Shown: positions 38,624 to 54,781 of the stretch, piece after piece
Position numbering within the stretch: the stretch's first letter is position 1
Layout: every line of letters begins with the position of its first letter
Assembly (NCBI RefSeq): GCF_000011385.1
Contig: NC_005125.1
Coordinates: 806,001 to 870,000 of the forward strand
DNA from: Gloeobacter violaceus PCC 7421
GTDB taxonomy: Bacteria; Cyanobacteriota; Cyanobacteriia; Gloeobacterales; Gloeobacteraceae
Length of the DNA stretch: 64,000 bases
Direction of reading: 5' to 3'
Position numbers and translations under genes: made by a program
The notes under the pieces: model-generated
Told to the model about the DNA's origin: nothing
Seen by the model: the letters and a program-made list of their open reading frames with translations, nothing else
The model's database searches: none

Positions 38624-39169
38624 ATGAACAAGCCAATCGCTTCAAAACCTTCTCTCGCTCTCACAGCAGGACTTTTAGCCGTTGGCTCATCGCTTTTGGC
38701 GGCGGGGATCACTTTTGCTGCGATCGATGATGATACTTACGAGGGCAGTGTTTTCTCACTCTACGGAAACAACGGCGCCCTTGTGCCGCCGCGTATCACG
38801 CTGGCCGAATCGATCCGCCGCCGTCAGCCTGCCCTGGTCATTCTCTATATCAACGACTCCCGCGATTGCAAAAAGCAGGCCTTCGACATCACCCAGCTGC
38901 AGTCCCGCTTCGGCTCGCAGGTCAATTTCATCGCTGTAAATGTCGACACCTTCCCACAGGATCAGCCCGACCTCCAAACCTACTTCCAGGGCGAGGTGCC
39001 CAAGCTGCTGCTCTTCGACCCGCGCGGCAAGCTCCTGTACGAGTCCACCGGCTACACTCCAGCCCGCACCGTCGAACCCTACTTCCGCAAACTCGTCATT
39101 GCCCTCCCCCCCCGTTCAACCCCAGCCCCCCTGGCACCGGCTCTACCGGCTCTACCAACTCAGCCATAG
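38624..39169 (+). CDS. Membrane-anchored thioredoxin-like protein with one active-site cysteine
   Basis: 181 residues. N-terminal membrane anchor (LALTAGLLAVGSSLLAAGITFAA), then a thioredoxin-like fold: LVILYINDSRDCKKQAFDITQL, FIAVNVDTF and the cis-Pro region GEVPKLLLFDPRGKLLYESTGYTP. The CxxC is reduced to DxxC (RDCK), so a classical dithiol reaction is unlikely. A proline-rich tail ends the protein. It is probably a periplasmic or lumenal redox or scaffold protein of photosynthetic membranes (inference). Confidence 0.8.
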   Translation: MNKPIASKPSLALTAGLLAVGSSLLAAGITFAAIDDDTYEGSVFSLYGNNGALVPPRITLAESIRRRQPALVILYINDSRDCKKQAFDITQLQSRFGSQVNFIAVNVDTFPQDQPDLQTYFQGEVPKLLLFDPRGKLLYESTGYTPARTVEPYFRKLVIALPPRSTPAPLAPALPALPTQP

Positions 39170-39649
39170 GTACCAGATACCAAATCCGGGTAAGGGTGAA
39201 GCGGCATGGCTCGAATGACGCTCTTTTCCTGGGTCTTTTTGGGTGGATTCGGCGGCTTTTGCTTGGCACGACGGTCTGTGGGGCGAGAGGCGGAACCCCC
39301 TTCGGGTTCCCCTCTCGCGCTCTCCAACCTCCCCGCGTCGGGGGGCTGCCAGCCCCCCGACACCCCCCGGACTTAGCGGCGCGGTTGGGAACGAGCATTG
39401 GCGGGTTGGGTAGGCTCACTCTTCCAGTGCGTGCACGACGCGTGTCGACTGCGGCAAACCCCTGCGTAAGCGTGGGTGCAGAAATTATTCCTCTACACTC
39501 GATTCAAAACTGTTCAAGACACGAAAATTTTGAAACCTGCTCAGGGCAAGGCTTTCAGCCCATTACAATATTACGAAATCCTTGCTTAACAATTATCCTC
39601 ACAAGAACAACGCCCTGCTACCACCTCTGAACCCAGCCTTGCCCACGAC
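39170..39649. other. 480-bp gene-free stretch containing repeat copy 1
   Basis: Apart from the repeat at 39255-39453 I see no gene here. The ORF in the repeat region (39160-39363 minus) is translated repeat, matched in copy 2, and not a gene. From about 39480 base composition becomes AT-rich. Confidence 0.6.
39255..39453 (+). repeat. Structured ~200-bp repeat, copy 1
   Basis: Nearly identical to the reverse complement of 42628-42827. Two blocks match: about 125 bp, starting GCTTTTGCTTGGCACGACGG in this copy and extending through a hairpin (GTCGGGGGGCT, GCC, AGCCCCCCGAC at 39337-39361), and the final 35-bp block ending GTCGACTGCG, which is identical. About 40 bp between them have diverged. 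A second stem-loop, GGAACCC/GGGTTCC, sits in the first half. It carries no protein of its own. Confidence 0.85.
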
Positions 39650-40789
39650 TCAACCCAGCTTGCGCTTACGAAATTGCCACGCCATCAAGCCAAACGCACT
39701 AAGCATTGGAACCATAAATCCAGGCACAGGCTCCGGTATCTCTTGAAAAAGGATGTCGTCAGGTGAACCCAGGTCGCCACTACCTGTAGGTACAAATATT
39801 CCTTCGTAAGCACCTGTGGAACCGTTGAACTCCAAAATGCTACTGGTGTCGCTATCTGCAACATACAAGTTGCCATCTGGACCAAAGGCGAGCCCTGTAG
39901 GATTGCTTAGGCCATTACCTGAAGCAAATGTCCCAATAAATGCTCCAGTAACACCGTCGTACTGATCGACACGACCCAGCTGAAAATCTCCAACTGTTAT
40001 GAACAAATTGCCATTCGGTCCAAATACAAAGTCAGCGGCACTGTCCAAATTGGAAACGAATACCCCCTGATAGGTTCCCTGACTGTCAAATCTTTGAACA
40101 GCTGAAGCAGCTTGATCTATTACAAACAGATTGCTATTGAAAAAAGCGATCTCTCCAGGAAGCATGCCTGACAGAAATGCAAAATCGCCCACATATGATC
40201 CATCAAAAACACTAAACTCTAGGATCTTGCTGCTGCTGGTATCAGCCACAAACAAATTGCCGCCATTCGGCCCAAACGCAAGGCCAGAGGGCCTACTCAA
40301 GCCACCTGATCCAGTGGCCACAAACTCTCCAATGAAGTCACCTGTAAGTAAATCGTACTCCCATACGCTCCCGCCTCCGTTTTGTGAAATAAATAGGTTG
40401 TTGTTTAGCCCCCCAAATACCATTGATGCAGGACTTAAACGAGAGAAACCCTCTACATAAGGCTCGAGAAAAACACCAGTTTGACCATCAAATTTCAAGA
40501 CATCATTTCCCTGAAAGGGGTCAAGCACAAAAAGCTCAGAATTAACACTAATATTTTGAGACCTGTTGCTCTCAGAAATTATTGAATCTGAACCCCATGA
40601 CCAATCTTCAGAAAATCTGGCAGTAATAGAGCTGCTCTGAAGTGAAAACAGCTTGAACGAGGTATTAGATAAAGTATTTGCAGTATCACTAAGGTCGTTT
40701 AACGTGAAAGCTTTTAAGTCCGAAGCAACCGCAGCCACTGCACACTCGACAAAAAGCAGGGAGGCAATAAGCACGACCAATTGTTGCAT
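39650..40789 (-). CDS. PEP-CTERM-anchored NHL/beta-propeller repeat protein
   Basis: 379 residues. Signal peptide (LVVLIASLLFVECAVA). Five or more repeats of the form GPNG-NLFVADTSSSKILEF / SGLAFGPDGNLYVADS, as in NHL or SMP-30-like six-bladed propellers. The C-terminus EIPEPVPGFMVPMLSAFGLM then RKRK is a PEP-CTERM sorting signal (PEP, helix, basic end), which exosortase cleaves in species that have it. It is probably an extracellular surface protein. Distinctly AT-rich compared with the rest of the window. ATG 40789 starts MQQLVVLIAS. Confidence 0.85.
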   Translation of the reverse strand: MQQLVVLIASLLFVECAVAAVASDLKAFTLNDLSDTANTLSNTSFKLFSLQSSSITARFSEDWSWGSDSIISESNRSQNISVNSELFVLDPFQGNDVLKFDGQTGVFLEPYVEGFSRLSPASMVFGGLNNNLFISQNGGGSVWEYDLLTGDFIGEFVATGSGGLSRPSGLAFGPNGGNLFVADTSSSKILEFSVFDGSYVGDFAFLSGMLPGEIAFFNSNLFVIDQAASAVQRFDSQGTYQGVFVSNLDSAADFVFGPNGNLFITVGDFQLGRVDQYDGVTGAFIGTFASGNGLSNPTGLAFGPDGNLYVADSDTSSILEFNGSTGAYEGIFVPTGSGDLGSPDDILFQEIPEPVPGFMVPMLSAFGLMAWQFRKRKLG

Positions 40790-40861
40790 GATGTACTGAC
40801 CTCGTAACACTTCCTTCGCAATCTGCCTTTGTAATGTACAGCATTTGGGCGAAAAATAAAA

Positions 40862-41479
40862 TTACTGCTCTAAAAAACCTCCCTCAATGGAGAGCCACTC
40901 ATCACCGACTTTGTACCAAAACCGGTTCGCGCGGTTACCTACTCTAACGAGTTGCGCTTCGGACACATTTTTATAGGTGATTTTCCCTGTACGAATCAAA
41001 TCTGCAAAATCCCCTCCCAAGCAACCAACTAATTTTCCTTCTTCCATGTGTTTATAATCGATAGAAAGTGATTTGTTTTCACGATCAAAAATTACTGTTG
41101 TAATACGATCTTGTAAGCATACTCCACTATTTTGAGTAACTCCGTAAATGTGAGGATAAAGTTGTAGCATTGCAACCTCATCGTTGCTCCAATACCATCT
41201 TGCTGAAACAGTTGAATCTCTTGAAAATTCAAAATTTATGGGTCCATTTTGTTCAATTGTACCAGGCAAGTATTTTCTAAATAGCATTCCTTCAAGAGCT
41301 GGTGCTAGATTGTATTTAATTTGATGTCCTTTTTCGGAACTATCTCTGTCTGCAGAAGTGCTCACTAATTCTCTGTTAAACATGATGTAAATAGTTGTAG
41401 AAGCTGTGACAGCAAGGGCTAGCAATGCTGTTCCAACCACTGACTCAATAAAGCTTGTCCCCCTCACATTTCTCTTCAT
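40862..41479 (-). CDS. Prepilin-like protein with intact Glu5
   Basis: 205 residues. Short basic leader then G-TSFIESVVGTALLALAV: a type IV prepilin peptidase site with Gly at -1 and Glu at +5, followed by the hydrophobic helix (to about residue 30). The rest is a soluble domain with four Cys (for example GVCLQD and VGCLGGDF), possibly forming disulfides. Low GC. The ATG at 41479 shares a base with the stop of the upstream gene (TGATG), so it is coupled. Probably a minor pilin or pseudopilin. Confidence 0.78.
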   Translation of the reverse strand: MKRNVRGTSFIESVVGTALLALAVTASTTIYIMFNRELVSTSADRDSSEKGHQIKYNLAPALEGMLFRKYLPGTIEQNGPINFEFSRDSTVSARWYWSNDEVAMLQLYPHIYGVTQNSGVCLQDRITTVIFDRENKSLSIDYKHMEEGKLVGCLGGDFADLIRTGKITYKNVSEAQLVRVGNRANRFWYKVGDEWLSIEGGFLEQ

Positions 41480-41901
41480 CACTGCGCTCCAGGCCTCGGT
41501 CCTATTACTGTTCTACTCCTAGTTGCTATTTTGATAAATGGATCATATGCGCCAGTCACAACTGCGTTGTTGTTGGTAGAACGGTTCCCTAATGCTTGGT
41601 CTTGGGGGCGTGCAGTTGTCCAAAAGCGAATAATCGAATATTCGTCTCGAACCTCAGGTTTGCTGAGCACGAAGACACTAAGACCTGAGGGTGAAAACTC
41701 CTGCTGTAATTGCTCACCACCAATGTTGTCAGCTGCTGCAACCATGGCTGTTCGTAAGGCACTTTTGAGTACAGACTTCTCAATGATCTGATCCGCAAAA
41801 GCTCTGGCATCGTTGTAATGATTTTGACTATTGATGCTGGTGGCGGTCATCATTGGAATGACAAGTATTAACAACAAGAGGCAGATGATTACGGAGGGCA
41901 C
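41479..41901 (-). CDS. Small single-TM protein in the pilin-like operon
   Basis: 140 residues from GTG 41901, which lies 13 bases before the stop of the preceding gene. N-terminal helix VIICLLLLILVIPMMTATS, then a soluble part (SQNHYNDARAFADQIIEKSVL...). It has no Gly/Glu prepilin site, but its size and position between two prepilin-like genes suggest a pilus-associated membrane protein. Alternative starts further upstream read out-of-frame through the neighbour. AT-rich. Family not recognised. Confidence 0.62.
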   Translation of the reverse strand: MPSVIICLLLLILVIPMMTATSINSQNHYNDARAFADQIIEKSVLKSALRTAMVAAADNIGGEQLQQEFSPSGLSVFVLSKPEVRDEYSIIRFWTTARPQDQALGNRSTNNNAVVTGAYDPFIKIATRSRTVIGPRPGAQ

Positions 41902-42452
41902 TGGCGCGAATCTCCAATGATGTACATAAGATGTGAACCGCTCTCTTTGGGGCCTGTTAATAGATAGCTGAAAAGCACTGGCGAGTCGCTGAGTTTGCGG
42001 TCGTAAGGCTCGTTGATGAGGATGCCGCCTGTCTGGCCGCTGCCTTCGTAAATGGATAGCGCGGGTGTCTCGACAGCAGCCTGCGCGAATAGTGCCTGGA
42101 CCTCCTCGGGTGAGCGATTGTTCACAGCCAGCAAGGTCGCGGGCTTCACGCATCCTTGAAAATCAACGTTGACAAACTCTTTGGTGCTCTCAGGCGTGAG
42201 CGGATAGCTCCCGGCGAGGCTGGTGGCCTGGAAGGCCGGGTCGTCCCAGTGATTTGCTGTCTGCTCGCCCGCCAACTGGTCGAAGTAATCGATAAATTCG
42301 GCGAAGCGCATGATGGTCTGGCCCTTGAGCACACTCTCGCGCGTGGACACCGTCACCGCCGTCAGTCCGCCAACACCCGCCAGAATAGCCGTCGCCACCA
42401 GGATGCCGACCAAGGATTCGCCGCGGGTTGTGCGTACAGAGGAAGTGGCCAC
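41889..42452 (-). CDS. Prepilin-like protein lacking Glu5
   Basis: 187 residues from GTG 42452. The leader ends TTRG, then ESLVGILVATAILAGVGGLTAV. This aligns with the prepilin consensus G-FTLVE, but the usual Glu at +5 is Gly (the +1 residue is Glu). Known Glu5-less pilins are tip or initiation subunits (GspK-like). The remaining domain shows DQLAGEQTANHWDD and a C-terminal MYIIGDSRQCPP. TTG 42506 gives a longer start. First gene of a three-gene translationally coupled run. Confidence 0.7.
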   Translation of the reverse strand: MATSSVRTTRGESLVGILVATAILAGVGGLTAVTVSTRESVLKGQTIMRFAEFIDYFDQLAGEQTANHWDDPAFQATSLAGSYPLTPESTKEFVNVDFQGCVKPATLLAVNNRSPEEVQALFAQAAVETPALSIYEGSGQTGGILINEPYDRKLSDSPVLFSYLLTGPKESGSHLMYIIGDSRQCPP

Positions 42453-42928
42453 TGTGCCCAGGAACAAGGACAACCCGATTAAATTCCATTCTTGGGAAAT
42501 TTGCAAGTGATAGTGCCAGATTTCAGGTGCCCGAGGAAACTATTGACCATCTATGTCTTGTACCCTTTGTCTACACCGCCTTACTCTCCGAGATATCCGC
42601 ACCCCAGCGGCGAGCAAGCCTTTGTGGCGCAGTCGACACGCGTCGTGCACGCACTGGAAGAGTAAACCCAGCCCACCCGCAGATTCTCGTGCTTCTCCGT
42701 GCCTTGAAGTCCGGGGGGTGTCGGGGGGCTGGCAGCCCCTCGACGCGGGGAGGTTGGAGAGCGCGAGAGGGGAACCCGAAGGGGGTTCCGCCTCTCGCTC
42801 CACAAACCGTCGTGCCAAGCCAAAAGCAGGTCTCAGAATGGATGCAAACGTCCACGAGGTTGTAGGTGGCCTGCAGTGTACGCGAAACCTTAACCGCTTT
42901 AAGCTGAGAAAAAAACTCGACCAAACCA
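42453..42928. other. Gene-free stretch containing repeat copy 2
   Basis: Holds copy 2 of the repeat and the promoter region of the next hydrolase. The open frames on either strand are repeat translations. Confidence 0.6.
42628..42827 (-). repeat. Structured ~200-bp repeat, copy 2, inverted relative to copy 1
   Basis: The reverse complement aligns with 39255-39453 over its full length: about 125 bp with only a handful of differences (for example GTCGAGGGGCT for GTCGGGGGGCT in the hairpin), about 40 diverged bp, and an exact 35-bp end block. The two copies face each other around a 3.2-kb island. Confidence 0.85.
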
Positions 42929-45373: not shown

Positions 45374-45946
45374 ATGCCAAACAACAACAACGACAACGAC
45401 GACAAGGGCGGTAGCGACGATACCACCGGGAATCTGTCCCATGAGGAAAACGGCCACGAGCCGGATCCCAAACCCGCCGGGGGGACACCGACGGACGACG
45501 AGTTGGGAGGCGAGACCGAGAACCCCCAAAATTTCAGCGAAGAACCCCTTCCCGAGGATGTGCCAGGCTTTCAGATGCCGGACTGGCTAGATCCTGCCGA
45601 CGGTGACATCTTCGGCATGGACAACGACACCGCTATGTTGGTCGGCGGCATTGCGACCGCTGGAGTGCTGGCGCTTTCTGGTGCCGGCGCGCTGGCGGCC
45701 GGTGGAGCGCTGGCTACCGGCCTCGTGTTGGGTTTAGGGGACGACCTACTGTTTGACCAGGGTAACGAGACCGTCGAGGCGTCGGCCGACAGCAGCGAGG
45801 GCGCAGAAGGGGAAACGGAGGTCGGCTTTGTCGCCGACACCGATGACACCTTCGCGCAGGACGACAGCTTCCATGAGGACGCCAATTTCTATTCCGAAGA
45901 CCCCGAATTCTACGCTGAGGAGCGGCAGTACGGAGACACCGCTTAG
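45374..45946 (+). CDS. Very acidic protein with a central glycine-zipper helix, unknown function
   Basis: 190 residues. The first 85 are almost all Asp/Glu/Asn/Gly/Pro (for example NNNNDNDDKGGSDDTTGN). Then a hydrophobic Gly/Ala segment, MLVGGIATAGVLALSGAGAL followed by AAGGALATGLVLGLG. Then a second acidic region ending with aromatic-acidic repeats (FYSEDPEFYAEERQYGD). The pattern recalls membrane-active or phage/effector proteins with glycine zippers, but I recognise no family. No signal peptide. Follows cysK by 142 bp. Confidence 0.7.
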   Translation: MPNNNNDNDDKGGSDDTTGNLSHEENGHEPDPKPAGGTPTDDELGGETENPQNFSEEPLPEDVPGFQMPDWLDPADGDIFGMDNDTAMLVGGIATAGVLALSGAGALAAGGALATGLVLGLGDDLLFDQGNETVEASADSSEGAEGETEVGFVADTDDTFAQDDSFHEDANFYSEDPEFYAEERQYGDTA

Positions 45947-54600: not shown

Positions 54601-54705
54601 GTGCTGTTTACCTACGTGGACGACTTCAAAAACCGGCTGGCCCGGCTTGGGCGCCGCCGGACGATCGAGACGGCCCAGGCGGTGCAAACCCCGGCCCAAC
54701 AGTAG
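51637..54705 (+). CDS. RND-family (HAE1) efflux transporter, AcrB-like
   Basis: 1022 residues, full length. Twelve transmembrane helices and two large periplasmic loops. N-terminal LSAWSIRHPIVIAVLF; proton-relay VGVLVDDAIVEIEN (both Asp present) in the fourth helix and GIVTKNSILLVEYA (Lys) later. Sequence features such as FMGGVPGQFFGQFGFTV belong to the HAE1 group, so drugs or hydrophobic solutes are likely substrates. Operon with the adaptor; TetR regulator divergent. Confidence 0.95.
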   Translation: MNNLSAWSIRHPIVIAVLFIALVIAGVVGFVQLPINENPNVDVPTVSVNITQSGAAPPELESQVTRKIEDALAGIENVEHLRSTIKDGISATTVEFVLGTDTDRAVNDVRDAVTKIRQELPQDIDEPVIARVDFVGGALMIYAVGSPTRSTEQLSWFVDHDVSRALLTVEGVSRVQRFGGVSREVRIDLDPNRLFALGITAEEVNRQVRALNRDLPGGRGELGGREQAIRTLGSAATVENLRATQIALSGGRRVALADLGSVSDGASEARQLARLDGKPVVGFSVIRSTGSSEVAIEKGVEAQIAQLEKRFADVHFDLVNTSVRYVHENYDASIEALWLGAALAVVVVYLFLRDGRATLIAGVAMPLSTIPTFAIMKLLGYSLNSLSLLALALVVGVLVDDAIVEIENIDRHIKMGKPPFQAALDAADEIGLAVVATTMTIVAVFVPVGFMGGVPGQFFGQFGFTVVAAVLFSLFVARMVTPLMAAYWLAAKPAPVRLPWYTRTYRTVLAWALSNRAATIAAAVAFFVLSLLLAPLIPSGFLANTDRGQSIVQLELPPGSTLAQTDAVARGLSAQLQKWPEIKNVFVSMGDQGEVRLATLFINLKPREERTIAQQDFEKAIQPVLAAVPGARLGFSVGFRGGKEVSIILTGEDTAELARTAERLSTQMQALSGLANVSNTASLSRPELLIRPRFERAADLGVSVERIGATAKIATLGDIDANLAKFNLEDRQIPIRVQIAPRHRTDLEVIRNLRVTADDGRAIPLETVAELAVGSGAAQIDRYDRARQISVEANLNGVQLGPALEQIYALPAMGDLPESIRLVRSGDVDLQDQVSERFGTALLLGVLLIYGVLVLLFGDFFHPLTIMAALPLSIGGALAGLLVTGKPLVLPALIGILMLMGIVTKNSILLVEYATVLIEKARLPRREALMEAGIDRLQPILMTTIAMIAGMMPIALGIGAGSEFRSPMAVAVVGGLLSSTLLTLVVIPVLFTYVDDFKNRLARLGRRRTIETAQAVQTPAQQ

Positions 54706-54781
54706 GCGGCAACAATAATTCGCCCCGGACCGGGCGGCTTGCTGGTACATTTGACCTGAAATTGTGCGGGATGGGTCCGGG

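Follow-up and report, generated by a model that had tools for sequence, protein, structure and literature searches.

A dispersed two-hairpin repeat and a minor-pilin operon with a divergent distal half in Gloeobacter violaceus PCC 7421

A minor-pilin operon of Gloeobacter violaceus PCC 7421 lies between two inverted copies of a non-coding repeat that occurs about 45 times in the genome. The account that we favor, and consider likely as a whole, is that the repeat is a passively dispersed element, that two of its copies flank the operon by coincidence, and that the operon is an old one with a replaceable distal module. The window analyzed is the whole 64,000-nucleotide stretch at positions 806001-870000 of the single 4,659,019-bp contig of G. 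violaceus, and its features are listed in Table 1. Comparisons were made with G. kilaueensis (JS1), the Aphanocapsa lilacina HA4352-LM1 assembly/MAG, and a genome (G003; main contig 4,921,229 bp) that resembles, and is tentatively named as, G. morelensis.

Table 1. Features of the repeat-flanked operon and related sites (positions in the window)
Feature	Position	Strand	Remarks
Divergent block relative to G003	39150..41550		About 35-80% DNA identity (higher only over the repeat core); flanks 90-97%
Repeat copy 1	39257..39456	+	Between convergent genes (thioredoxin-like, + strand; NHL-PEP, - strand); family of about 45
Hairpin 1, GCGAGAGGCGGAACCCCCTTCGGGTTCCCCTCTCGC	39283..39318	+	Nearly invariant across the repeat family
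Hairpin 2, GTCGGGGGGCTGCCAGCCCCCCGAC	39337..39361	+	C-G to G-C compensatory changes across the repeat family
NHL beta-propeller with PEP-CTERM-like tail (IPEP...TM...RKRK)	39650..40789	-	GC 0.45; saturated divergence from G003
pilW-like minor pilin	40862..41479	-	RG^TSFIE; GC 0.39; saturated synonymous divergence from G003
pilX-like small single-TM protein	41479..41901	-	Overlaps both neighbors; GC 0.46
pilV-like minor pilin	41889..42452	-	RG^ESLVG (homologue in G005 has canonical RG^LSLIE); GC 0.59
Repeat copy 2	42625..42824	-	Between divergent genes (pilV-like, - strand; alpha/beta hydrolase, + strand); orthologous site occupied in A. lilacina and G003
Empty site	54704..54742		Repeat copy at the G003 orthologue (C1:171925-172121)

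The two copies form the sole inverted pair of their kind in the window, with arms of 200 nt each that are 89% complementary and separated by 3168 nt. A sequence-only reading of this DNA had described inverted copies of about 200 bp, both with hairpins, enclosing three coupled prepilin-like or single-TM genes and a PEP-CTERM beta-propeller gene, and all of this was borne out; the shared exact block that it gave as 35 bp exists, but is 36 bp by count (ACTCTTCCAGTGCGTGCACGACGCGTGTCGACTGCG). Both copies fold strongly relative to shuffled sequence (z-scores of -3.65 and -2.02). For copy 2, orthology holds across the three repeat-bearing species (its G003 counterpart ranks first), and copy 1 is orthologous in A. 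lilacina, where the match stops inside the repeat at window position 39,424. The G003 counterpart of copy 1 is 80% identical, ranks 18th of 38, belongs to a different subtype and has unalignable flanks; the idea that both copies are orthologous in G003 was rejected, as it holds for copy 2 only.

Similarity and pattern searches of G. violaceus found 40 and 44 copies, respectively (45 together), and a search with end patterns added three truncated or decayed pieces. A. lilacina and G003 have 41 matches each (some partial in A. lilacina), and similarity search of G. kilaueensis gave none. Across 370 cyanobacterial genomes the core hairpin was present in three (G. violaceus, A. lilacina, and G003), with the other 367, G. 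kilaueensis included, lacking it; no copy was found in the plasmids, phages, and viral contigs searched, and an Rfam search at E<=1 gave no match. The complete element exceeds 200 bp (roughly 200-330 bp) with variant right ends, and the 200-bp copies encode no gene. In an alignment of 33 copies the two hairpins are conserved, with 97% of pair cells paired, and they are supported by covariation: the score is 0.048 vs 0.019 in shuffles (0 of 500 as high) and falls near zero when the partners are slid. The commonest double change in hairpin 2 is C-G to G-C, and A-U to C-G is seen in hairpin 1. The default RNAalifold consensus mispaired hairpin 2, and a hand-specified two-hairpin structure performed better. 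In G003 a subfamily with a GGCACC...GGTGCC hairpin 1, changed on both sides, is common; none of its members was found in G. violaceus.

Gene contexts of the copies were called with a custom, simple codon-score gene finder rather than a standard annotator. No copy in G. violaceus overlaps a predicted gene, and the contexts (n=40) are 26 convergent, 11 tandem, and 3 divergent. The convergent context accounts for 23 of 39 repeat-bearing boundaries in G003 vs 50 of 351 repeat-free boundaries (odds ratio 8.7, p=2.8e-9), a bias that persists when only gaps >60 bp are considered. About 20 sites are common to G. violaceus and G003, and three hold a copy in one genome only, among them the empty site at window 54704-54742 (Table 1). 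At the cleanest of these, 245 bp directly 3' of an intrinsic terminator kept by both species are absent from the G003 orthologue, with no target-site duplication at this one clean occupied/empty pair; at a second, a 333-bp stretch corresponds to about 30 bp. The repeat family has probably moved, with the reservation that at any one site loss instead of insertion would look alike. Orthologous copies are often, not always, mutual closest matches, so strong homogenization by concerted evolution was rejected. A search for solo ends in G. violaceus, aimed at an autonomous partner, returned the known copies and the three truncated or decayed ones and no transposon, a search that decayed partners could escape. 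One copy of G. violaceus (locus L106, C1:385142-386833) is split by an insertion of about 1.5 kb that encodes an IS4/Tn5-like transposase (judged by eye), with a duplication of about 8 bp (CCGCGTCG) and inverted ends CTATCCGTTACCCACAT; the copy is unsplit in G003 and A. lilacina.

These features would describe a non-coding, two-hairpin, dispersed intergenic element of roughly 200-330 bp, ERIC- or MITE-like in behavior, that spread in the ancestor of the three Gloeobacter species, probably passively and via a transposition function no longer recognizable, and that survives mainly between convergent genes, where insertion would do least harm. Set against this account are the want of a transposase with matching ends and of a target duplication, and a clean loss from G003 may have left the same picture; hairpin conservation could also mean a functional element, a terminator or RNA, instead of a passive one. 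That the copies are selected functional elements, e.g. bidirectional terminators or 3'-end stabilizers between convergent genes, is possible though not likely. The strong bias to convergent gene pairs, the GC-rich hairpins, which have a CUUCGG loop and show compensatory changes, and the sites common to G. violaceus and G003 all agree with such a role, but selection against damage to promoters and genes explains the convergent bias equally well, the hairpins have no following T-run, copies also lie between divergent genes (copy 2 included), one polymorphic copy directly follows a normal intrinsic terminator kept in both species, and G. kilaueensis does without the repeat.

By its features, rather than by sequence identity, the repeat fits the ERIC-like intergenic class, being palindromic, present in many copies, and without coding capacity. 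Like ERIC (intergenic repeat units) and other MITE-like repeats, it is intergenic, occurs tens of times and in both orientations, is confined to a few related species and is missing at some orthologous sites; it differs in its length of 200-330 bp, its two separate hairpins, its lack of an Rfam match, and the absence of a target duplication at the cleanest site. REP/BIME elements mobilized by RAYT (Y1) are likewise extragenic hairpins in many copies near gene 3' ends, but the Gloeobacter unit is several times longer, and an origin by Y1/RAYT was rejected since G. violaceus has no match to the Y1 transposase (PF01797). A composite transposon was also rejected, as the flanking 200-bp copies hold no gene and so no transposase-encoding IS. 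No earlier account of a Gloeobacter repeat was found in the open-licence literature.

Neighboring pairs of copies within 5 kb number five in G. violaceus vs 2.1 expected under random placement of 45 (P=0.055), and five in G003 vs 1.9 expected (P=0.04). The pairing of copies around the operon is not clearly beyond chance given the family size, and the bracketing of 3.2 kb needs no special explanation. All ten close pairs in the two genomes are inverted (about eight independent, p=0.008, in a test picked post hoc). This counts against mere coincidence unless it is accounted for, most simply by loss of close direct copies via recombination. Rearrangements are also seen at copies. About 950 bp including a repeat is inverted between species at loci L008 and L130 (G. 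violaceus C1:445137 and G003 C1:4240035), with a repeat remnant of about 40 bp at the opposite end of the inversion. In A. lilacina (locus L141, contig C69, near 8703), a phosphopantetheinyl-transferase-like/polyketide-synthase-like region abuts trx and 175 bp of repeat copy 1, so that a rearrangement had its breakpoint inside the repeat.

The pilV-, pilX-, and pilW-like genes overlap by their starts and stops. The prepilin motif (G, with E at +5, before a hydrophobic helix) is present in the PilW-like protein, lacks E5 in the PilV-like protein and is absent from the PilX-like protein; the pilin-like proteins gave no Pfam match, and AlphaFold models of the PilV- and PilW-like proteins (mean pLDDT 51 and 47, respectively) were too poor for fold searches. 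The propeller carries a PEP-CTERM-like tail (PEP motif, TM segment, and basic end; IPEPVPGF...RKRK), read from the sequence with no match to the Pfam PEP-CTERM domain, and the genome encodes an exosortase (PF09721 match, C1:1258405-1259175). That the enclosed genes are AT-richer than their surroundings, as first read, holds for three of the four, but the pilV-like gene is near the regional average. Low GC is common to the relatives as well, at 0.44-0.49 for the propeller and 0.39-0.49 for pilW in four genomes.

A PilV-like profile matched each of the six Gloeobacteraceae genomes but no other cyanobacterium of the 236 searched. The four genes keep their order in G. kilaueensis, at a different location with no repeats, and pilin genes occur without the repeat in G. 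kilaueensis, G004, and G005. In G005, pilV-pilX is on one contig and pilW-propeller on another; in A. lilacina, an intact pilV-pilX adjoins repeat copy 2, and pilW-propeller lies with pilV/pilX remnants on a different contig, with no repeat nearby. Where pilW would be expected after pilX in A. lilacina (locus L077, contig C29, 5411-5740) there is a transposase-like fragment, ISL3-like at its N terminus by eye. The operon is a long-standing minor-pilin set of the Gloeobacteraceae with two separable halves, and it is not cargo of the repeats because the pilin genes span the Gloeobacteraceae, repeat-free genomes included.

Minor pilins and propeller are described, in two accounts of minor-pilin operons that end in or contain PilY1, as together forming the pilus tip (PMC7541494; PMC5979040), and a review of cyanobacterial type IV pili notes the difficulty of telling which minor pilins belong to a tip complex (PMC12288463). 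From gene order and motifs we infer that the three minor pilins may make up the tip or priming complex of a type IV pilus, with the beta-propeller as a PilY1-like adhesin. The arrangement resembles the Pseudomonas-type fimU-pilVWX-pilY1 cluster in that small PilV-, PilX-, and PilW-like pilins stand side by side and a beta-propeller protein comes next; it differs in its propeller, which is of the NHL type and ends in a PEP-CTERM-like tail, and in sequence families that do not match. Pfam and NCBIfam found no PilY1 domain in the propeller, only NHL/ScyF-like matches. Its NHL region is weakly similar, by NCBIfam, to that of ScyF/ScyE-type NHL PEP-CTERM proteins, and its C terminus is of their style, but the propeller scores far under the curated cut-off (38.6 of 350 bits) and is located in a pilin operon.

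The distal half of the operon is much more divergent than its surroundings. In the flanking genes, protein identity of G. violaceus and G003 is 94-98%, and 11-18% of four-fold sites are unlike; for pilW and the propeller, identity falls to 48% and 62%, respectively, with four-fold differences of 0.61 and 0.76, and pilV and pilX are somewhat raised (0.27 and 0.35). Across 90 ortholog pairs >80% identical the four-fold median is 0.13 and the maximum 0.34, in a control set with no gene of GC3 <0.55, so that weak codon constraint in AT-rich genes is only partly controlled. The left edge of the divergent block lies at about 39,150, some 100 bp beyond copy 1, and its right edge is abrupt, at about 41,550, near the pilX/pilW junction and 1.1 kb inside copy 2. 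This suggests that pilW-propeller is a pilus-tip module that was most likely replaced by recombination with divergent alleles. Because the edges of the block do not coincide with either repeat, the replacement is not attributed to the repeats. A neighboring predicted protein (window 45374-45946) is also fast-evolving (73% identity and four-fold difference of 0.38 relative to G003) beside well conserved genes.

Unusually fast divergence of pilW and the propeller in place, with no replacement, is an unlikely alternative that nevertheless carries some weight: gene order and position are kept in G. violaceus and G003, rapid evolution is frequent among surface proteins, pilV and pilX are raised too, and codon constraint may be weak in AT-rich genes. 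However, synonymous saturation is not caused by protein-level selection alone, divergence sets in abruptly at the pilX/pilW junction, and pilW-propeller is a separate unit in A. lilacina and G005. More doubtful is the idea that copies act as portable homology and that recombination between them swaps or rearranges the module. The synteny break of A. lilacina inside copy 1 at trx, the flanks of L012, L031, and L008, which map to different places in G003 or are inverted beside the copy, and the inverted orientation of every close pair would suit it, yet both edges of the divergent block miss the copies and the pilW-propeller cluster of A. lilacina has no nearby repeat.

Least probable by far is the mobile or invertible cassette proposed in the sequence-only reading on the strength of hairpin-bearing inverted arms of 200 bp that enclose AT-rich surface genes, given about 43 other copies in G. 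violaceus, no recombinase or transposase in any of eight ORFs scanned within and next to the interval, an unchanged orientation in G003, the one sister genome with the full interval, and the presence of the genes elsewhere without repeats. That reading's other suggestion, an island framed by repeats spread through the genome, was correct, and the dozens of unrelated copies that it said would count against a cassette are there. Of the normal GC and vertical phylogeny named alongside them, inheritance within the family was found, but the GC of three genes is low and the pilW-propeller half shows synonymous saturation between close species.

On the preferred account, in which a passive repeat flanks an old operon by coincidence and the distal pilW-propeller module has changed between species, by replacement or diversification, far more rapidly than the remainder, probably through recombination, the tempting "island" view of a repeat-flanked operon is corrected, and a dispersed repeat family limited to part of Gloeobacter is described. 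It is a rather improbable further suggestion, a shade more so than swapping between the copies, that this restricted repeat provides scattered homology for exchanging a hypervariable tip module of the type IV pilus, made up of the PilW-like pilin and the PEP-CTERM beta-propeller adhesin; if true, that exchange would give deeply divergent alleles at one conserved locus. Why this half of the operon is saturated between close species, and whether a PEP-CTERM beta-propeller serves as the pilus-tip adhesin, can be tested here in a deeply branching cyanobacterium.
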